Positions 464-31,785 of a DNA stretch of 42,965 nucleotides are shown one piece after another (within the stretch, counting starts at the first letter, position 1; each line of letters starts with the position of its first letter). The position numbers and the translations under genes are program-made. Location: positions 1 through 42,965 of the IMG/VR virus record IMGVR_UViG_3300035181_000792, one strand, 5' to 3'. A model generated the notes under the pieces. It was not told the origin of the DNA and did no database searches. It saw nothing but the letters and a program-made list of their open reading frames with translations. This DNA is from a virus.

Positions 464-1153
464 CTATCGGCGGGCCGTCTTCTTGGCCTTGGCCTTGGCT
501 TCGGGGGCCGTCTTCTTGGCCTTGGCCTTGGCTTCGGGGGCCGTCTTCTTGGCCTTGGCTTCGGGGGCCGTCTTCTTGGCCTTGGCTTCGGGGGCCGTCT
601 TCTTGGCCTTGGCTTCGGGGGCCGTCTTCTTGGCCTTGGCTTCGGGGGCCGTCTTCTTGGCCTTGGCCTTGGCTTCGGGGGCCGTCTTCTTGGCCTTGGC
701 TTCGCCGGGATTCATGGTGAAACCGAGGTTGCGGAGGGTGACGAAAAATTCCCGATAATTGCGGAGGCCTTCACGCGTGAGCATCCTTTCCGGCACCTCG
801 TCATAAAGGTCCGTGAGGTCCATGATCTCGCCGCGCGCGGAAGCGAGTACTGAGTCAAGGTGGGTCCGGAGATACTTCATATCTTCGCGCGTCATGGGAA
901 CGGGCGCGGGCTTGGGGGCCTTGGCGGGCTTGGGGGCCTTGGCGGGCTTGGGGGCCTTGGCGGGCTTGGCCGTGGGCTTGGCCGTGGGCTTGGCCGTGAG
1001 CTTGGCCGTGGGCTTGGCGGGCTTGGCCGTGGGCTTGGCCGTGGCCTTGGCGGGCTTGGCCGTGGGCTTGGCCGTGGCCTTGGCGGGCTTGGCCGTGGGC
1101 CTCACGGGTGGCGCGACGGGCTTGCGGTTCGCGGGAGCGGTGATCGTACGCAT
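464..1153 (-). CDS. Histone-H1-like Lys/Ala/Pro repeat protein
   Basis: This 229-aa protein has three parts. Residues about 1-87 are a low-complexity basic tail built from TAKPAKA, TAKP and PKPAKA units. Residues about 88-148 are a normal, probably helical domain (MTREDMKYLRTHLDSVLAS ... NYREFFVTLRNLGF). Residues about 150-229 are a second basic tail of about eight copies of KAKKTAPEA, encoded by 27-bp or 33-bp DNA repeats at 480-700. The composition resembles eukaryotic H1 and bacterial AlgP/Hc-like proteins, which bind and condense DNA non-specifically. A DNA-condensing or host-nucleoid role is inferred from composition only. The start ATG has GGAGG seven bases upstream. The repeats may vary in copy number by slippage, and short-read assembly may have mis-sized them. 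Confidence 0.75.
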   Translation of the reverse strand: MRTITAPANRKPVAPPVRPTAKPAKATAKPTAKPAKATAKPTAKPAKPTAKLTAKPTAKPTAKPAKAPKPAKAPKPAKAPKPAPVPMTREDMKYLRTHLDSVLASARGEIMDLTDLYDEVPERMLTREGLRNYREFFVTLRNLGFTMNPGEAKAKKTAPEAKAKAKKTAPEAKAKKTAPEAKAKKTAPEAKAKKTAPEAKAKKTAPEAKAKAKKTAPEAKAKAKKTARR

Positions 1154-4294: not shown

Positions 4295-7200
4295 CTATTG
4301 TGGCTTCACATTGTGAGATACCACGCCAAGCGTGGTGTAAGTGTGGACGCGATTGACGGTGATCTTGACGACAGGCCCGTAAACGTCGGCCCGTGCGGAC
4401 TCTACAACTAGGCCGTTCGTCAGCACATCGCCGTGGACCAAGTGCTGTAGTTCTTGCCAGCGGCCATCGCCGAGTAGGAATCGGTGATTGGCAGCGAACC
4501 TGCCCGTGCGCCCGTTGGAAAGCACAAGCAGCCATCGGTGGTTTGTGCTCATGGATGCGTGTGTGACTTCCTCAACGCACACGCACCCTTCGGATTCGTC
4601 CCAGGCCACAACACGGTCGCCAACGCGGACAACACCCGATGGCTTCTCGGTGCCGTCGGCCATGAGCAAAGGCACATCAGGAGCAGGACAGTTACCTCCA
4701 CCACCCGTTCCGCCACCCGTTCCGCCACCCGATGCCCCCGTGATACCTGACGGCCAAGACGTGCCATTGTCCGTGAGCGCGGTGCCGACAGTCCACCCAG
4801 ACGCGGAGTAGAAGCAATGGGTGTCGCTCGATCCCGCCGCGCCGTAGAGTGTGACCTTGCACGCCGGGACTCCTGACAGAATCGCCTCAGCGATAACCTG
4901 TGTGGCATAGGACGCGTTCCCGGCATCTGAATCGCTCGTCGGGTTGTAGTAAATACGGTCCCCAAGCGGGCAGTAGTAGACGCCCCTTGCGGTCAGCGTG
5001 GCAGTTGTACCAGCGGCGGACTGGCTGAACAACTCGATCTTGGCGTAGGAGAGCCCATCCAAATTATCCGTGTATGAATTTGGCGCCAGCTTGAGATCGA
5101 TGCGCCCCATGTAGGGGCTGGCTACCTGGTAGAGCCTTGGCGTAACGGTTAGCTGAGAAATGTTGGGGCGTCCGCCATTGGTGCCAGGGTCATTACTGCC
5201 CCGATAAAAGCACCGGAATGACGTTCCAGCCTGCCCGTTGTCGCCGATGGCGCTCATGGCACGGGCGGTCAGACCAGACAACTTATAGCCTGCGAGATTG
5301 ACGCCGTAGCCTAGTTCCATTTGCGCGGTGAATGTTTCGCCGCCAAGTAAGGTTGAAGGAAAACCACCCGCGCTGATCCTGAAACCGATGGGCGCCGAGA
5401 TGGCCGTGCCCGCATGGTATCCGTTCTCGTCCGAACCGCTCCGCATGTCCAGCGAGTAAAGCAACGGCACCCGCGCCACGAGTGCCTGGAGCGTGCCGTC
5501 CACAATCATGGAGGCGTCGGCCATGCGGCGGGCGTATAGGTTGTCGAACCAGTACCACCCAGATGGCTGTGCATCGTTCACTTCGAGGTATATGACCATG
5601 AGCACCGCGCCCGCTGGCGCGGTGCCAATACATGAGGCTTTGGCATAAGAGGTTGAGCTAACTACAGTCGGCGAGCCCCAGCCAACTGTATTGTTTGCGG
5701 CGTCCCGGAAATAACAACCCATAGCCTGCATACCTGGGCCCTGAGACTTTGCCATGCACTCCATGTAATATTTGTCACCAGCAGCACAGGGGATGTGGGC
5801 CAAGTCTGTGCCGCTGTAAGTTCCGTTTGTGTGGTACACCGCGCGGGCGTAGTCCCCCGAGAAGGCGTTAGGCCCGGAGTGATCCAGCCACGCCGCTTCA
5901 AATGAGCCAGCAGGCCAGCCACCGGTAGGCGGAGTTTGATCGCTGGTCCCATTGGGGATCAGATTGTCGAGGTTCGTCACCGTCAATTGGCTAGAAATCA
6001 ACTGCCCGAATAGCCCCGTTGCCGCCACCAGCACATCAGTCCACGCCGTGCCTGCCGCGTTGACCTGCACCGTGCGGGCGTCCGTGGTGATGGCGTAGTA
6101 GCCTGCGGGATAGCTCGCATTCGGCAGCGCGGGCTTCGACGCATAGGCCCACGCGACCTGATGCGGCTGTGAAGCGAGTTGCACGGCGTTTGCCTTGTTC
6201 GTGGCATCCGTCGCCGCCATGCTGATCGCGTTCTGCGCCGTGCCCACCGCGATGGCGTTCCGAAGATCGGCGGCGGCATTCTTCACGGCGGTCCACTTCG
6301 GGTTCCACAGGGCCACGCGATTCCCGGTGCCGAGCGATGTGGTGCCGCTGAGTGAGTTCCAGGCCGTGGGGCTGGTGAGCGTGGAGAGGTAGGACATCAG
6401 CGCGGAATAGGCCGTGTCATAGGTGGAGTGGCTCACGCTGTAGGCATTGGCCTTCGCCACGAGGTCCGCGTTCTCGCCCGTGATCGCGTTGTAGTCGAGG
6501 ATGATCTGCGGCTTCTCGCCCGTGGTCAGGGTGTCGGGATCGTTGATCGTGTTGACGCCGGACTGTGCCGCATCCACGTCTGACTGTGACACGGTGCCAA
6601 ACGCACCAACGGATATCCAGTCAATGGCTACCGATGTTCCTAGATCATTGATGAAGTCGAATCGGAGGGCGAGAACATTCCCGCCGGTCATGTAGTCAGA
6701 CCCGCCCACAGTGAGTGTTCGCATGTCCGCGACGATGGTGGTCCAGACGCCTACGGTTGGGGCTGGAATCACTTTGCGGTAGCCAGAGTTCTCACCGTGA
6801 CCGGCATTACTTGGGTAGATGACACCTTCCCATGGGCCTGTAATGAGTTTGACCCGCATGGCGATTGCGTAGGATTTTGTTGGGTCCAGGTTCAGCCCAG
6901 TAAACCTTAGATTTTGGTCAGCAACCGTGTTGGTGATTGTCGTGGTCGTCCCATTGTCACTCGATGCGACGGTGCCTGGGAATGTGACACCGGCAGGAAG
7001 GCCACCGGAGAAATCTTTGAAGAGAATCGGCTTGATGGGTGAGCCAGCCAGATCGTTAGCCGCATCCGCAAGGGCCTTCGCCTTGGCATAGATCGCATTG
7101 AGAAGGGACTGCCTGTTGGAATACACATCGGCGAACTTCTGCCGGAAGGTGGTTCCCACGATGGGCACGTCTGAGCCGGGGATGACGTTCCAGCCGGGTA

Positions 7201-9886
7201 GTGTTCCGAGGTAGGTGGTCAGAACTGAGACGGCAACGTCGTAGGACGTGCGGCTCACTCCGTAGGCATCTGCCTGGGCATCAATTCCGGCTTGCTCATT
7301 CGTGATGTTGGTGTAGTCGAGTACTACGGCTGATTTTTCTCCAGAGCTGAGAATGTTGTCCGAGGCGATGCTAGCGAGTCCATCCAATGCGGACTTGATC
7401 CAATCAGGCTGTGTTGAGCTTGCCACCACGGTGTAGGAGCCGCTCGCCCATTCGGAGTTTCCAGACTTGTAAACACCACACACCCGCACGGAGTAGGTGC
7501 CCGGCTGCACGTCGTCGAGTAGCGCGGTAGGTCCTGTCACCACCATGTCAGTCCACGGACCAAAGTCACGCGATGCCTGAGCATGGTAGCTAGAGGCGCT
7601 GTCTTGGTCCCAAGAGGCCATGAGCACTTGCACATTGCGATCTTGAAGTGTGCGTGTAGTGGCGATGATGCTGAGGTTGGCGGGGACGGCGATGGCCGTG
7701 CTGGTGTCCTTCCGTGGGATCGTGTCGCCAGCAATCAAGCCGAGCATGGCGTACTTCGCCGGGTCATGCCGCAAAGCCGACACAGTGTATGTAAGGCCCG
7801 TGTCCTTTGTAACATCTGTCACCCTCCACAACGAATCCGTAGTGGGTGTGCTGAGCAACCACGAAGTGCCCGCAGCCGGTGCAGAAGAAAACGGAGATGA
7901 CACGCTCAAGGTAGAAGTCGTGCTTGCCGGTGTGCTCACTGGCTTGGTTTCAAGGCCAACAAGCGTTTGGCACGAGAGCGTGTAGGAGGTGCCGGGGGCG
8001 AGTGTGACTGGTGCGTCCAAAGTCACATTGCTTGCGTCGGAAGCAGAGATGATGCGCCCACCGATGCGTGCGTGCCCCGCGCGGAATTGATCACTGATGC
8101 TGATGATGTCGCCAGGGTAGACTACAGAGCCTTCCAGTCCAGAGGAAAACGACACCAGCTCTGAAGCAAGAAGCTCTGTGAGTATTGCCCACTTGCATAG
8201 GCGAAGCGCCTGTCCGTGCGAAGTGCACCCAATGGCGGACAGATTGAGGACATTGTAGCCATAGCGAGAAATGCCGTCCTGGTCCTCGTACACGGCAACG
8301 TCGGAATCATACCCTAGCTCTGGATTCAGGAACGTAGCAATCGCCACCGTGTGTCGTGCTTGCTTAGCTGTTCCTTCGTACCTGAACGCTCCGCCCTCTA
8401 CGTTGGCATTCGTGAACACCGCGGAAACCACATCGTCTGTGTCGGCCACCGCAGTGACAAGCCCACTCGCGTAGTACGTGACGCCCCAAAAGATCGAGGC
8501 CATGTCGGACAGAGCCTTGATAGCATTCTGCTGGCCTTGGATGTAGATGTTGGCACTCATGCGGGGCTCAAGGCCCATCTTGCCATCGTCCACCAATGTG
8601 TCGCACCACTGGCCGATGTTGTACAGGCTCCATTTGTCTAAGTTCGTTGCCTGTAGGAATGTGCCGCTGCCATAGCGGGTGGAAGTGGCCATGTCGTACC
8701 ACACCCACGCAGGATTGTTGCACCAAGCCATTTTGAACGACCCATCCCAAGCGCCAGCGGTAGTGCCGGGGCCGGTGGTGGCGTAGTTCGCAAGCCTGGT
8801 TATTGTGCGCCCTGGTGCCGAAGCCTCAGTTACCGGGGAGCCGCCCGTGGTGGTGAGCACAAGGTCAGAAACATTGGAGATCGTAAATGTGGAGTTGTTG
8901 GCCGCGTTTGTGAAGCCAGTCGTAGTAATCTGCTGACCAACCACAAAACCATCGTCAATAAAGCTGCCCACGTCTCGCGTGAATGTGTGCGCCGTACCGT
9001 CCACTGCTACCTTGTTGGGGCGGAACGGCTCACGAGGTGTGTAGTTCGCAGGCACTTTGATTTTGAGAAGTTTGGCAACGACCGTTACCTGCGGAATGGA
9101 CTTGAACTGTTTTGAATTGACGCGCATTGAAAGCACAGCGCTGTTTGGGTAGCGCAGTCTCACGTCAATGATTTCAGTAAACGCCTCCCACCATGTATCG
9201 CGTAGGTTGTACGCAGTAGAGTCAGGCGACAAGCGCGTGACGCGAATCTGCCATGTTCCGGTAGGAACCGGAAGATCAACATGATAGGTTTTAGTGAACT
9301 TCGTAGAGAACGGGCCGCCAGTGATTACGCCGTTGCCCTCAAGCACAACCGCCGTCCACGCCCCACCCATGTAGCCAGGATTCTGGATTTCGATTTTGAT
9401 CTGTACTGTGTTGCCGGAGGTGTTGCCGTTACTGGAGTCTATTACCTTGAACTGGTTCGGCATTGAGATGCGCACGCGCACTGCCGACGGGTTGGTGGAC
9501 GTGGAGCGTACTACTGGCGTTGCCTGGAACACCTGAACGCCAACGACAGTCTCAGACTCGGACCCCGCGATGCCTTTGATCGCGGGCTGTGTGTTCGTTC
9601 CGGCAACAAGGGCCATGGCGAAGCCCTTGAAGTTCTTTGTAACACCATCTCCAGATAGCACAGGGGTGCCATCCAGGTACACGCTCTTCAAACCTTCGTA
9701 GAGCCCCGCGATAGGTCCTTCGCCTAGAAGAATCTGGAGTGTTCCAGTCTCGTTTACCGTGGGGTCCAAGTAGGACGGGCGTCCTACCGGGCCGCTCCCG
9801 CCACCACCTCCTCCTGGTCCGCTTGGCCCGCTAAGCCAAGAGGAGCCGCCTCCGCCATCACTTGGATCTACAACGCTAGTGACCAT
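4295..9886 (-). CDS. J: Tail-tip attachment protein, lambda J-like, with C-terminal Hint domain
   Basis: The 1863-aa product matches the host-specificity (central tail fibre) class. It has a glycine-rich start (about 11-37), then the J core, in which YLDGTPVL (about residue 70) belongs to the tip-protein region. A domain at about 292-365 is shared with the tail tube. A fibronectin-III-like module lies at about 730-815. Two copies of a roughly 100-residue helical module follow (ILSSGEKSAVVLDY near 840 and TLTTGEKPQIILDY near 1120), with a beta-sandwich carbohydrate-binding-like segment between them. A glycine-rich linker and a 131-residue tail containing a Hint domain (1733-1863) end the protein. 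In lambda-like phages J binds the receptor and organises the tail tip. The start has AAGGA six bases upstream. It follows the gpI gene by nine bases. Confidence 0.9.
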   Translation of the reverse strand: MVTSVVDPSDGGGGSSWLSGPSGPGGGGGGSGPVGRPSYLDPTVNETGTLQILLGEGPIAGLYEGLKSVYLDGTPVLSGDGVTKNFKGFAMALVAGTNTQPAIKGIAGSESETVVGVQVFQATPVVRSTSTNPSAVRVRISMPNQFKVIDSSNGNTSGNTVQIKIEIQNPGYMGGAWTAVVLEGNGVITGGPFSTKFTKTYHVDLPVPTGTWQIRVTRLSPDSTAYNLRDTWWEAFTEIIDVRLRYPNSAVLSMRVNSKQFKSIPQVTVVAKLLKIKVPANYTPREPFRPNKVAVDGTAHTFTRDVGSFIDDGFVVGQQITTTGFTNAANNSTFTISNVSDLVLTTTGGSPVTEASAPGRTITRLANYATTGPGTTAGAWDGSFKMAWCNNPAWVWYDMATSTRYGSGTFLQATNLDKWSLYNIGQWCDTLVDDGKMGLEPRMSANIYIQGQQNAIKALSDMASIFWGVTYYASGLVTAVADTDDVVSAVFTNANVEGGAFRYEGTAKQARHTVAIATFLNPELGYDSDVAVYEDQDGISRYGYNVLNLSAIGCTSHGQALRLCKWAILTELLASELVSFSSGLEGSVVYPGDIISISDQFRAGHARIGGRIISASDASNVTLDAPVTLAPGTSYTLSCQTLVGLETKPVSTPASTTSTLSVSSPFSSAPAAGTSWLLSTPTTDSLWRVTDVTKDTGLTYTVSALRHDPAKYAMLGLIAGDTIPRKDTSTAIAVPANLSIIATTRTLQDRNVQVLMASWDQDSASSYHAQASRDFGPWTDMVVTGPTALLDDVQPGTYSVRVCGVYKSGNSEWASGSYTVVASSTQPDWIKSALDGLASIASDNILSSGEKSAVVLDYTNITNEQAGIDAQADAYGVSRTSYDVAVSVLTTYLGTLPGWNVIPGSDVPIVGTTFRQKFADVYSNRQSLLNAIYAKAKALADAANDLAGSPIKPILFKDFSGGLPAGVTFPGTVASSDNGTTTTITNTVADQNLRFTGLNLDPTKSYAIAMRVKLITGPWEGVIYPSNAGHGENSGYRKVIPAPTVGVWTTIVADMRTLTVGGSDYMTGGNVLALRFDFINDLGTSVAIDWISVGAFGTVSQSDVDAAQSGVNTINDPDTLTTGEKPQIILDYNAITGENADLVAKANAYSVSHSTYDTAYSALMSYLSTLTSPTAWNSLSGTTSLGTGNRVALWNPKWTAVKNAAADLRNAIAVGTAQNAISMAATDATNKANAVQLASQPHQVAWAYASKPALPNASYPAGYYAITTDARTVQVNAAGTAWTDVLVAATGLFGQLISSQLTVTNLDNLIPNGTSDQTPPTGGWPAGSFEAAWLDHSGPNAFSGDYARAVYHTNGTYSGTDLAHIPCAAGDKYYMECMAKSQGPGMQAMGCYFRDAANNTVGWGSPTVVSSTSYAKASCIGTAPAGAVLMVIYLEVNDAQPSGWYWFDNLYARRMADASMIVDGTLQALVARVPLLYSLDMRSGSDENGYHAGTAISAPIGFRISAGGFPSTLLGGETFTAQMELGYGVNLAGYKLSGLTARAMSAIGDNGQAGTSFRCFYRGSNDPGTNGGRPNISQLTVTPRLYQVASPYMGRIDLKLAPNSYTDNLDGLSYAKIELFSQSAAGTTATLTARGVYYCPLGDRIYYNPTSDSDAGNASYATQVIAEAILSGVPACKVTLYGAAGSSDTHCFYSASGWTVGTALTDNGTSWPSGITGASGGGTGGGTGGGGNCPAPDVPLLMADGTEKPSGVVRVGDRVVAWDESEGCVCVEEVTHASMSTNHRWLLVLSNGRTGRFAANHRFLLGDGRWQELQHLVHGDVLTNGLVVESARADVYGPVVKITVNRVHTYTTLGVVSHNVKPQ
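4298..4690 (-). other. C-terminal Hint (intein-like) domain of the tail-tip protein
   Basis: This segment encodes residues 1733-1863 of the J-like protein. It begins with Cys after a GGGTGGGTGGGGN linker. It continues with PLLMADGTEKP and VRVGDRVVAW (block A/N2-like), RTGRFAANHRFLL (block B with its His) and HTYTTLGVVSHN (blocks F and G), and ends VKPQ. The residue after the terminal His-Asn is Val rather than Cys, Ser or Thr, and only four residues follow. Ordinary splicing is therefore not expected, and self-cleavage or ligation as in bacterial intein-like (BIL) domains is more likely. At about 127 residues it has minimal Hint size with no endonuclease insert. Confidence 0.85.
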
Positions 9887-16251: not shown

Positions 16252-16809
16252 CTACTTTACAGGAACGGGATGTACGAAGTACCCGCGCGATTCGCGCATT
16301 TCTTTCGATTTTTCGCAGGCAGCTTTGAATGACTTGAAATAGCCACCAGATTTTTTCGAGCGTTTTCCGTCTTTCTCCCACACCATTTCAACGCTCCACA
16401 TACCAGCGTGCGTGCTCCAGTACACACCCGGGTAGCCGGAAGTGTTGGTTTTGTAGATGGGCAAATTATGTGCGTTCTCTGACACGGTGGCAATGCGAAG
16501 GTTGGCTGACCTGTTGTCGTGCCGAATGCGGTTAATGTGGTCAACGTGCATTCCAGGCTTCCAATTCTTGCACAGCAACCACGCCATTCCTATCGTCTTG
16601 CGCTTAAAAGCGCATTTAGCGTATCCGTAGTTCTCGCTCCAGTGGTGCATGGCTATCTTGTGCAGGTCACGTATGTCCACGATAAACTCGCACGAACTAT
16701 TGGAAGCCTTGACATACGCAAGCCCACGATAGAACCTCACCGAATTACGGCACTGAACTACCTCGCCAGTTGGCAGAGTTACCGGAGTGAAAACAACTGG
16801 CCAAGCCAT
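16252..16809 (-). CDS. Free-standing HNH homing endonuclease with AP2-like DNA-binding tail
   Basis: The 185-aa protein has an N-terminal beta region, then the HNH_3 core HVDHINRIRHDNRSANLRIA with SENAHNL (about residues 88-115). An AP2-like segment at about 122-170 follows (SGYPGVYWSTHAGMW, SKKSGGYFKSFKAACEKS). These proteins cut an allele lacking the insertion and promote their own copying. The gene sits between the tail tube gene, which it overlaps as ATGA, and the tail chaperone. It therefore interrupts an otherwise conserved pair without breaking either. The ribosome-binding site is poor (AGG about eight bases upstream), consistent with low expression or coupling to the tube gene. Confidence 0.92.
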   Translation of the reverse strand: MAWPVVFTPVTLPTGEVVQCRNSVRFYRGLAYVKASNSSCEFIVDIRDLHKIAMHHWSENYGYAKCAFKRKTIGMAWLLCKNWKPGMHVDHINRIRHDNRSANLRIATVSENAHNLPIYKTNTSGYPGVYWSTHAGMWSVEMVWEKDGKRSKKSGGYFKSFKAACEKSKEMRESRGYFVHPVPVK

Positions 16810-29442: not shown

Positions 29443-31785
29443 CTACCCGCCTACTGAGGCAAGAAGTGACTTGGAAATCTTGAGCGGTGCACGGCGCATG
29501 GTGACAAGCTCAAGCGCTCCCATGAACGCGTCCACATCATCGTCTTTCGCTGCGTTGGGGAAGATGGCACAGCTCTCGACGAAATCATGCGCCCACTTGG
29601 TGCCCTTCAGGATGCGCACCAGACCTGCCTCCTGGATAGGCGACACCACATTGGCACGAAGCACCTTGTCTGTGGAGTGCACCACCTCCACAAACGGGAT
29701 GCGCGTGAGGCGCGATAACGCCTGTATGACCGCCTTGCCCGTGGCAGAGCCGCCACCTTCGATGCCCACCTGCGACGGTCGCCATTTGTCGTACAGTTGC
29801 TCGACCTTGCGCTCCAACTCAGGGAACTCGATCTTCTCGCAGAACAGATCGAGCATGACGTAGCCGTCCTTGGCTATGCCCATGGTGACGCAGGCCGCGT
29901 TGTCGTTGCTCTGCTTGCCGCCTGCCGCCGTGTCCCAGTACTGAATGATCTGCTCCAATTGGAAGAAGACTTTCAGCCTCTCCACCTCATCGCCACCAAT
30001 GCGTACATCGGCGGGTGGCCCAGAGACATATTTCCAATTGTCGCGCAAGAAGATGACACCCTCTGCGGCAGACGGCCTCTGCTGATAGAGACTGGCCCAC
30101 ACACGAGAGCCCGTGCCTACTTCGTCGATGTCACCAGACCCGTAGCGTATGCGGTTCAGCGCTTCGATGGGATAGCGTGCGGGGTGCAGCGCCTCACCTT
30201 TGCGGCGATACTTTTCGTCCTCTTCCGCAATGGCCGGGTACTTGGCAACCTCCCATTTCTCGCCGCCCTTGCCCATGGCCGTGAGCAACCGACCAGCTAG
30301 ATCGTCGGCGTGCCATCGAGTGTTGTGTGCCACCAAGCCGTTTGCGATGAAATTCTCTGTGCCCTCTACCTCAATATCGAAGACCTCTTGCTCACCAACG
30401 GGCTCGATGGCGCAAATTTCATCTTCGGTGAAGTCGTAGATATTCGGCGGCAGCGCTGAGAATTCGTGAAGTCTTTCCGTAGCCAACTGCGAGGTTGCAG
30501 TCGTTGCACAAGAGTCCTCGCGTCTTACCGGTTCGGTGGTCGTGGTCAACGCATAGCTTGGCGTCCCAATGAGCCCTTGTGTTTTGACTGGTAGGTGGCT
30601 TCCGGCAAATGGCGCACTTTCCTCCCTGCTGTTTAAGAAGCGCGTCGAACTCTTCCGCAGTAATGCCGTAGCGATATTTGAGACGCGACGCCCTGCGCGA
30701 TTCAGGATTGACTGAAGGCGGTCGCACACCATTCGCCCAGCGGGTTTTGTTGTAGTGAGATTTGCAGAGTCCTTTGCAACTGACTGGCTCCGTACACCCA
30801 TCGACAGAGCACTCAACTCCGCGCCAGTGGCCGTAACTGACACTAGCTTGTCGCCCACTTTGAGATTTCTTAGCCTTGTCCATACAAGCGCCTCGCTCCT
30901 GCGAACGAGGAAAGGGTGGCGTTCGTTCGCTTTCACAAGCCTACCTGAACTCGTTCTGATTTCATAGCAGAAATCAGAACCTTGGCTCTTCCAATGTTTT
31001 ACGAACGACGTTGACAGCGCACCCTTATTGAACGTTGCAATCTCATCGCCAGCACGAACATCAAGCATGGGCTTCTCTGTGCCATCGGCCATCAACACCG
31101 GAGTGTCGCCAGTGACACACATGATCAACAGAATGCCGCCTCCGGGCTCTGCGCGAGTCTTGAGTGTAGTCTCGTACCAGTCCCAAATACTTTGACGCGT
31201 AGTGACAGAGTACGCCTCCTGCGCGTCCTTAACAGGATCATCGATCATCAACACGCGTGCTCCACGGCCCGTGACGCCCGTTCCCACGCCCGCGCTCTTG
31301 TACGCACCCTTGTGGCCCACAATCTCGAACTGTTCAGAATTGCGCAAGAACGAGCCCTTGGACGTAACAGTGCGCACTGACGAACTGCTCAAGGTGGTGT
31401 CGGGGAACAACTGCGCGTACTCTTCCTGATCAATAATCTTCTGCACGTCACGATTCATCATGGACGCGAGATCATTCGAGTAGCTGGTTGCGATGAACGT
31501 CAGGTCAGGGTAGCGCCCTAGCGCATACGCGGGAAACCGCCTGGACACCATCTCAGACTTGCCCGAGCGAGGCGGGGCCATGATCATCAAGCGCGGAGAC
31601 TTGCGATCAATGACATCTTGAAGGAATTGGTCTAGCTTTGCCGCCAACTCGTAATGAAACCAGCCAGCGTTGTAGTCGCTCTTCGTCCAGAGGATGAACG
31701 CCAGTAGATCGCGCTTCGCCTTGGCGCGTATGGCGTCAATCATGCTCAACTTTTCGGCGCGGCTTAGCGTCTCCAGTTCAAGCAC
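29443..31785 (-). CDS. terL: Terminase large subunit interrupted by an intein
   Basis: The 780-aa precursor is a terminase large subunit (514 residues without the intein). ATPase motifs precede the intein: Walker A-like APPRSGKSE (about 70-78) and Walker B RVLMIDDP (about 177-184). The intein occupies residues 223-488. The C-extein resumes with TRWHADDLAGRL, the conserved segment after Walker B. Nuclease motifs follow: QYWDTA, VGIEGGG and the acidic KDDDVDAF near the C terminus. TerL packages DNA through the portal and cuts concatemers. The start is GTG with GGGGAG five bases upstream, and the TerS stop lies just before it. Splicing out the intein should restore a contiguous ATPase with the junction LLIM-TRWH. 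Confidence 0.95.
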   Translation of the reverse strand: MLELETLSRAEKLSMIDAIRAKAKRDLLAFILWTKSDYNAGWFHYELAAKLDQFLQDVIDRKSPRLMIMAPPRSGKSEMVSRRFPAYALGRYPDLTFIATSYSNDLASMMNRDVQKIIDQEEYAQLFPDTTLSSSSVRTVTSKGSFLRNSEQFEIVGHKGAYKSAGVGTGVTGRGARVLMIDDPVKDAQEAYSVTTRQSIWDWYETTLKTRAEPGGGILLIMCVTGDTPVLMADGTEKPMLDVRAGDEIATFNKGALSTSFVKHWKSQGSDFCYEIRTSSGRLVKANERHPFLVRRSEALVWTRLRNLKVGDKLVSVTATGAELSALSMGVRSQSVAKDSANLTTTKPAGRMVCDRLQSILNRAGRRVSNIATALLRKSSTRFLNSREESAPFAGSHLPVKTQGLIGTPSYALTTTTEPVRREDSCATTATSQLATERLHEFSALPPNIYDFTEDEICAIEPVGEQEVFDIEVEGTENFIANGLVAHNTRWHADDLAGRLLTAMGKGGEKWEVAKYPAIAEEDEKYRRKGEALHPARYPIEALNRIRYGSGDIDEVGTGSRVWASLYQQRPSAAEGVIFLRDNWKYVSGPPADVRIGGDEVERLKVFFQLEQIIQYWDTAAGGKQSNDNAACVTMGIAKDGYVMLDLFCEKIEFPELERKVEQLYDKWRPSQVGIEGGGSATGKAVIQALSRLTRIPFVEVVHSTDKVLRANVVSPIQEAGLVRILKGTKWAHDFVESCAIFPNAAKDDDVDAFMGALELVTMRRAPLKISKSLLASVGG
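30322..31119 (-). mobile_element. Intein in TerL, 266 residues
   Basis: The intein begins with Cys (CVTGDTPVLMADGTEKP, splice block A) and contains VRAGDEIATF and block B (GRLVKANERHPFLV with its His). Another conserved Hint stretch, VWTRLRNLKVGDKLV, follows. It ends with blocks F (EVFDIEVEGTENFIANG) and G (LVAHN). The next extein residue is Thr, so all splicing nucleophiles are present. It interrupts LLIM-TRWHADD, a highly conserved TerL position. Between residues about 100 and 226 the in-frame translation has no recognisable fold. That stretch coincides with the endonuclease gene encoded in another frame (30419-30883). A minimal intein would be about 140 residues. Confidence 0.93.
30419..30883 (-). 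CDS. Endonuclease VII-type HNH nuclease nested out of frame in the intein
   Basis: This complete 154-aa protein is encoded in a different frame from TerL. Residues 25-44 form a zinc-knuckle-like CSVDGCTEPVSCKGLCKSHY. Then comes the recombination endonuclease VII/HNH core: YGITAEEFDALLKQQGGKC (72-90), CAIC (90-93), DHDHRTGKTRGLLCNDCN (113-130) with its four-Cys zinc site and catalytic Asp-His residues, and LAVGYG. The ATG at 30883 has an AGGAGCGAGG region 7-12 bases upstream, so it can be made on its own. It lies wholly inside the intein, where in-frame homing endonucleases normally sit. The first ~16 codons overlap the conserved intein VWTRLRNLKVGDKLV. It probably cuts intein-less terL alleles. 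Confidence 0.93.
   Translation of the reverse strand: MDKAKKSQSGRQASVSYGHWRGVECSVDGCTEPVSCKGLCKSHYNKTRWANGVRPPSVNPESRRASRLKYRYGITAEEFDALLKQQGGKCAICRKPPTSQNTRAHWDAKLCVDHDHRTGKTRGLLCNDCNLAVGYGKTSRILSAAAEYLRLHRR

Follow-up and report, generated by a model that had tools for sequence, protein, structure and literature searches.

An EndoVII/HNH gene nested out of frame in a phage terminase intein: a candidate mobile element with more than one hundred relatives

Introduction

The closest described relatives of the element reported here are the TerL6-f inteins of cluster B3/B4 mycobacteriophages, such as that of Chandler gp6 (Kelley et al. 2016, PMC5050341). In the available portions of that study splicing only is reported for TerL6-f, endonuclease activity is assayed for TerL1-b and TerL1-c, with an identifiable HEN domain noted, and we found no mention of a nested gene in TerL6-f. 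The nearest analogue in print is ShiLan, in which an HNH sequence lies out of frame in a phage methylase gene whose host frame remains open (2025, PMC11855218).

Our search of the accessible papers returned no account of an intein that contains an endonuclease out of frame. Split inteins accompanied by free-standing endonuclease genes were reportedly described as 'fractured genes' by Dassa et al. in 2009. A 2025 preprint by Gosselin, Arsenault and Gogarten is said to deal with actinobacteriophage inteins of non-canonical architecture and is reportedly cited for overlapping frames; going by its title and citations, it may already cover some actinophage members of the family presented below. The distribution, fixed offset and start-codon logic of inteins with a nested HNH are apparently undescribed in the accessible literature.

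Here we examine a window of 42,965 nucleotides, comprising positions 1 to 42,965 of the IMG/VR virus record IMGVR_UViG_3300035181_000792, in which the terminase large subunit gene carries an intein and the intein carries a second gene. We consider it very probable that this is a mobile element in which a complete EndoVII/HNH homing endonuclease, translated on its own from the -1 frame, overprints the central loop of a class-1 mini-intein.

Results

A mini-intein interrupts the terminase

The product of terL (Table 1) matched the Pfam families Terminase_6N (1.3e-14) and Terminase_6C (6.1e-16) as well as phrog_38 (2e-94). Its intein bears a class-1 signature (Cys1, a C-terminal His-Asn and a +1 Thr), and Cys1, the block-B region N65xxH68, VFDIEV...TENFIANGLVAHN and the +1 Thr were invariant across 51-59 diverse members of the family. 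The initial annotation had placed an intein at exactly these coordinates and had predicted the junction LLIM-TRWH, which is indeed what is left once residues 223-488 are taken out; the spliced TerL is predicted to have 514 aa. An intein-free allele at the same TerL site (L003) reads LITMTRWH.

We modelled the intein with AlphaFold from an alignment that omitted rows from annotated phage records. The pLDDT was mostly 93-98 over residues 1-100 (84 for residues 91-100) and 93-97 for residues 231-266, while in the inner linker it was mostly 41-51 (below 50 for most of residues 103-221, and 65 in the block 221-230). The model matched the Hint fold of the Ssp and Npu DnaB mini-inteins (E 1e-9). As modelled, the window intein is a confidently predicted mini-intein fold with a disordered loop. 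The homologous TerL6-f intein of Chandler gp6 splices in E. coli, according to the available portions of Kelley et al. (2016, PMC5050341).

Elsewhere in the window, a tail protein of 1863 aa (4295-9886, minus strand) has a Hint/intein-like C-terminal domain at about 4415-4693 (CPAPDVPLLMADGTEKP...VHTYTTLGVVSHN), with 35% identity to the N block of the TerL intein (E 6.5e-8); the 301-aa end of this tail protein had no Pfam match. Separately, positions 464-1153 (minus strand) encode a repeat protein rich in lysine, alanine and proline (AKKTAPEAKAK units).

Table 1. Features of the terL locus, in window coordinates.
Feature	Position	Strand	Details
terL, terminase large subunit precursor with intein inside	29443..31785	-	780 aa, GTG start
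Intein, 266 aa (C1...N266)	30322..31119	-	TerL residues 223-488; Pfam Intein_splicing PF14890 1.8e-16
N-terminal splicing half, intein residues 1-101	30817..31119	-	AlphaFold pLDDT; DnaB mini-intein profile match
Inner linker in intein frame, residues about 102-227	30440..30816	-	Unconserved, predicted disordered
C-terminal splicing half (blocks F and G), residues about 228-266	30322..30439	-	TIGR01443 1.9e-8; pLDDT
Nested HNH/EndoVII-type homing endonuclease gene (putative)	30419..30883	-	154 aa; offset +2 (= -1) relative to terL
HNH start codon ATG	30881..30883	-	Wobble base of intein codon 79 plus TG of conserved Trp80 (TGG)
Shine-Dalgarno-like sequence AGGAGCGAGG	30891..30900	-	GAGG 7 nt upstream of HNH ATG

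A complete endonuclease gene lies in another frame of the intein

The nested reading frame matched Pfam Endonuclease_7 (PF02945, 1.9e-20) and T4 endonuclease VII (9.8e-8). The claims that a complete EndoVII/HNH gene sits out of frame in the intein, that it has its own start codon and ribosome-binding site, and that a single stretch of DNA here encodes parts of two conserved proteins were all borne out: the HNH start falls within intein residues 79-80, and its stop codon lies at intein residue 233, barely within the C-terminal splicing half. The beta-beta-alpha-metal motif, with catalytic D113, H114 and N130 and the zinc ligands Cys90, Cys93, Cys126 and Cys129, was kept in 114/114 nested HNHs from related loci. 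Foldseek gave only weak matches of the HNH monomer to T4 EndoVII (E 0.03), probably because EndoVII is an intertwined dimer. The HNH frame was open from its start in 112/114 relatives and broken near the start in the other two, which indicates that the nuclease is dispensable.

In L006, L042 and other inteins of about 300 aa, the nested HNH has an N-terminal extension with an extra Cys/His motif that resembles a second DNA-binding finger. The window also encodes an HNH_3 endonuclease of 185 aa (16252-16809, minus strand; 1.2e-8) with a weak AP2-like C terminus, which is probably a free-standing homing endonuclease among the tail genes.

The same offset recurs in phages, a plasmid and bacterial genomes

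A tblastn search of isolate phages placed HNH matches within annotated terminase genes of the Gordonia phages Affeca, Angelicage, Vivi2 and others and of the Mycobacterium phages Phlyer, Chandler, Nozo, AlanGrant and phi1_186018, with an HNH offset of +2 wherever both gene starts were compared. A terminase on a Streptomyces anulatus plasmid also contains a nested HNH. The isolate-phage records that we examined list a terminase or an intein only and leave the nested nuclease unannotated; annotation pipelines have evidently missed it. From IMG/VR we analysed the best 80 of 466 intein relatives and the best 80 of 558 HNH relatives, and a search of species genomes added 26 relatives. Host or bin names in these records were Bradyrhizobium, Nonomuraea, Gallionellaceae, Geobacteraceae, Endozoicomonas, Mycolicibacterium, Chloroflexi and Berkelbacteria. 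All sampled rows had the same insertion site in TerL, (I/V)(M/Q)-C...N-TRW.

In the fetched loci a profile scan paired N with C splicing blocks 172 times. An HNH lay between the blocks at offset +2 in 169 of these pairs; two of the remaining three lacked an HNH and one was frameshifted. An in-frame HNH within an intact intein frame occurred in 0/172 of these pairs. Removal of copies left 115 distinct intein DNAs, 114 of them with an HNH, a set that excludes two loci with TWW at the junction and one chance match in another gene. A scan for divergent HNHs gave 6 loci. No nested arrangement outside terL emerged among 60 EndoVII matches down the phage ranking, which were mostly annotated as endonuclease or hypothetical, the terminase entries being two TerL cases.

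IntN and IntC lie in one open frame in all members analysed except one. In this metagenomic locus (L145:1942-2755) a 1-nt shift puts the HNH into the frame of the intein N block and the C block out of frame, which means either that terL is broken or that the assembly is wrong. That shift could be a sequencing error, and the initial annotation had named a sequencing error as something that would undo its reading of the window itself. An error of sequencing or assembly, or a misread single-frame gene, has a negligible probability as an account of the window, given that the identical architecture and offset are found in independently sequenced Gordonia and Mycobacterium isolate phages, the Streptomyces plasmid, bacterial genomes and many metagenomes. 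Since the same double coding recurs in more than 100 related phage genes, the element is a stable mobile element and not a sequencing error or an accident.

Selection acts on the endonuclease frame

The initial annotation had suggested a Ka/Ks comparison of the two frames. Across 17 pairs, dN/dS of the inner DNA was 0.105 in the HNH frame vs 1.61 in the terL/intein frame, with values of 0.131 for the N splicing block and 0.116 for the exteins. In 34 independent pairs, substitutions at codon positions 1/2/3 were 0.155/0.098/0.374 for the inner region in the HNH frame and 0.144/0.113/0.362 for the N splicing block in the terL frame, two almost equal patterns. In the inner region the second codon position of the terL frame evolves fastest, because substitutions there follow the HNH codon.

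The intein frame nonetheless had no stop across the HNH in any of 114/114 members, where synonymous recoding of the HNH predicts a mean of 2.7; for the window alone, the open intein frame had P = 0.034 against such recoding. The third frame contained a mean of 12.0 stops, with 11.3 predicted from recoding. From the dN/dS values and the absence of stops together we conclude that the inner terL-frame residues are free to vary as protein and yet are kept open, much as the initial annotation had supposed when it called this segment meaningless but open. Of the alternative frames, -1 alone has few stops by nature, and this may explain why the +2 offset became fixed.

These data are the reverse of a situation, also foreseen in that annotation, in which relatives would conserve the inner segment as intein protein and carry stops in the HNH frame. 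They bear in the same way on the idea that only the intein frame is of consequence, the HNH being a relic in decay. Three loci with broken HNHs beside intact inteins (L167, L163 and L190) are what a relic would look like, but the low dN/dS of the HNH frame, its openness in nearly all members and the universal retention of the catalytic residues make this reading very improbable for the family.

A silent position of the intein is under selection as a start codon

The nested gene starts with ATG in 97, GTG in 16 and TTG in 1 of the 114 relatives. An A thus precedes the conserved Trp codon in 97/114, where codon usage predicts 47. When compared with other tryptophan codons, A preceded TGG in 97/115 cases here vs 376/1820 in the exteins (Fisher p 1e-44, uncorrected for kinship; family members share ancestry, and the test counts overstate independence). 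With E/K/Q codons only, in 70 diverse members, the ratio was A49:G8 vs A95:G140 (p = 3e-10). Selection on this silent intein position makes sense only if the position serves as a start codon.

A core Shine-Dalgarno 4-mer was found upstream in 42/70 relatives vs 93/1115 control Trp codons. Its energy was -6.8 kcal/mol vs -6.4 kcal/mol when the same intein residues were recoded synonymously. We therefore rejected selection on the Shine-Dalgarno sequence; because it is no stronger than recoding gives, selection is evident for the start codon only.

A second way to express the HNH would be programmed -1 ribosomal frameshifting, which would yield a TerL-N/IntN-HNH fusion instead of an internally initiated protein. 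Programmed frameshifts most commonly go in the -1 direction, which is also the invariable offset here, and a canonical slippery heptamer lies near the junction in 25/70 members. However, the heptamers vary in position and most members have none, in the HNH frame of the 70 members a stop precedes the conserved start by 0-30 codons (often by no more than 4), and a frameshift would have no need of a start codon selected at a synonymous position. Frameshifting is accordingly improbable, and internal initiation is favoured by the selected start, the upstream HNH-frame stops and the unconserved heptamers.

The element moves between terminases, and its endonuclease can be lost

The nested HNHs formed one clade, apart from eight free-standing EndoVII proteins, with a support of 96.8. 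L093 and L047 are 89% identical in the HNH and 87% in the N splicing block vs 32% in the exteins; conversely, the window and L001 are 93% identical in the exteins and about 51-53% in the inteins. The histories of intein and TerL, as read from these sequences, disagree in both directions, as homing predicts, and demonstrate horizontal movement.

Following the suggestion of the initial annotation to look for homologues that lack the inner segment, we found mini-inteins without an HNH at the same TerL site in L172 and L191. At this site, too, the HNH carries stops in L167 and L163, with an intact intein, and is internally deleted, with its start retained, in L190; a classical intein with an in-frame LAGLIDADG endonuclease occupies it in L204 (1756-2898). 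In the broken cases the loss falls on the HNH and not on the intein frame. The decayed HNHs, the HNH-free mini-inteins and the LAGLIDADG intein are stages of a homing cycle, in which the nuclease is here a separate overlapping gene.

Two origins had been put forward: capture of a free-standing endonuclease by a mini-intein, and a classical bifunctional intein whose fused HNH domain slipped out of frame, presumably by compensating indels. Slippage would account for an insertion between blocks B and F, the usual position of intein endonucleases, and a classical in-frame intein does exist at the same site in L204. The nuclease of L204, however, belongs to an unrelated family, the HNH has its own start and a complete N terminus, and one offset and one clade are common to all members. 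Slippage is thus an unlikely origin. A mini-intein that captured a free-standing EndoVII-type gene appears to fit better, because about 190 loci yielded no in-frame EndoVII fusion, the HNHs form a single clade and they nearly always begin with their own ATG or GTG. The best reading of the comparisons would be that a homing endonuclease with its own translation overprinted a mini-intein on a single occasion and that the arrangement has been stable since. A further proposal, that the locus is an intermediate on the way to split inteins, found no support: L145 apart, no member analysed has a split intein frame, and the nested form is both stable and widely distributed.

Discussion

We propose the following course of events for the overprinted mini-intein. 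A ribosome on terL would read the whole intein frame and the two splicing halves would fold, leaving about 125 inner residues as a disordered loop; the intein would then excise itself and restore TerL. We infer that a second ribosome would start at the ATG on the conserved Trp codon and produce a free, zinc-binding nuclease of 154 aa. This nuclease would cut terL genes that lack the intein, at the site encoding TRWH, and repair of the cut would copy the intein and its nested gene together. At the original capture, the N terminus of the HNH would have run back into the coding sequence of the intein itself.

If so, an intein and its endonuclease need not share one protein, nor even one reading frame, and translation of the nuclease is placed under a start codon hidden in a splicing domain. 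The overlap would also protect the nuclease gene, because most frame-shifting indels that kill the nuclease also kill an essential packaging gene. On balance we favour, with some reserve, a broader view: that these loci represent an old and widely distributed class of mobile elements in phages, in which the HNH of the intein is always in the -1 frame and always started on the conserved Trp codon, so that splicing and homing are separate proteins of one DNA segment, each lost or kept alone, and that the class has spread after a single origin across the TerLs of phages of many bacterial phyla. With more than 100 natural replicates, including states with a dead nuclease and with none, the family offers a test of the origin of overlapping genes and of homing cycles.

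The element shares with classical bifunctional inteins, which hold a LAGLIDADG or HNH endonuclease in frame, the position of the endonuclease between blocks B and F and the logic of homing; it differs in that its endonuclease is in another frame and forms a separate protein. With T4 endonuclease VII and the free-standing EndoVII-HNH proteins of phages the nested HNHs have the catalytic domain and zinc ligands in common, but the former are encoded by free-standing genes and the latter form their separate clade. As in split inteins with a free-standing endonuclease, the endonuclease gene lies between IntN and IntC; in those systems IntN and IntC are on separate genes, whereas here they form one open reading frame. 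ShiLan and the present family are alike in having an HNH hidden out of frame in an uninterrupted phage ORF and a scattered distribution that suggests homing. The ShiLan sequence has no detectable splicing domains or ribosome-binding site and is thought to stay in the host protein, in contrast to the window, which encodes a complete, self-removing intein. The TerL6-f inteins occupy the same insertion site in the TerL C-motif and have homologous splicing blocks, and the Chandler TerL6-f intein carries a nested HNH in the same frame as that of the window.
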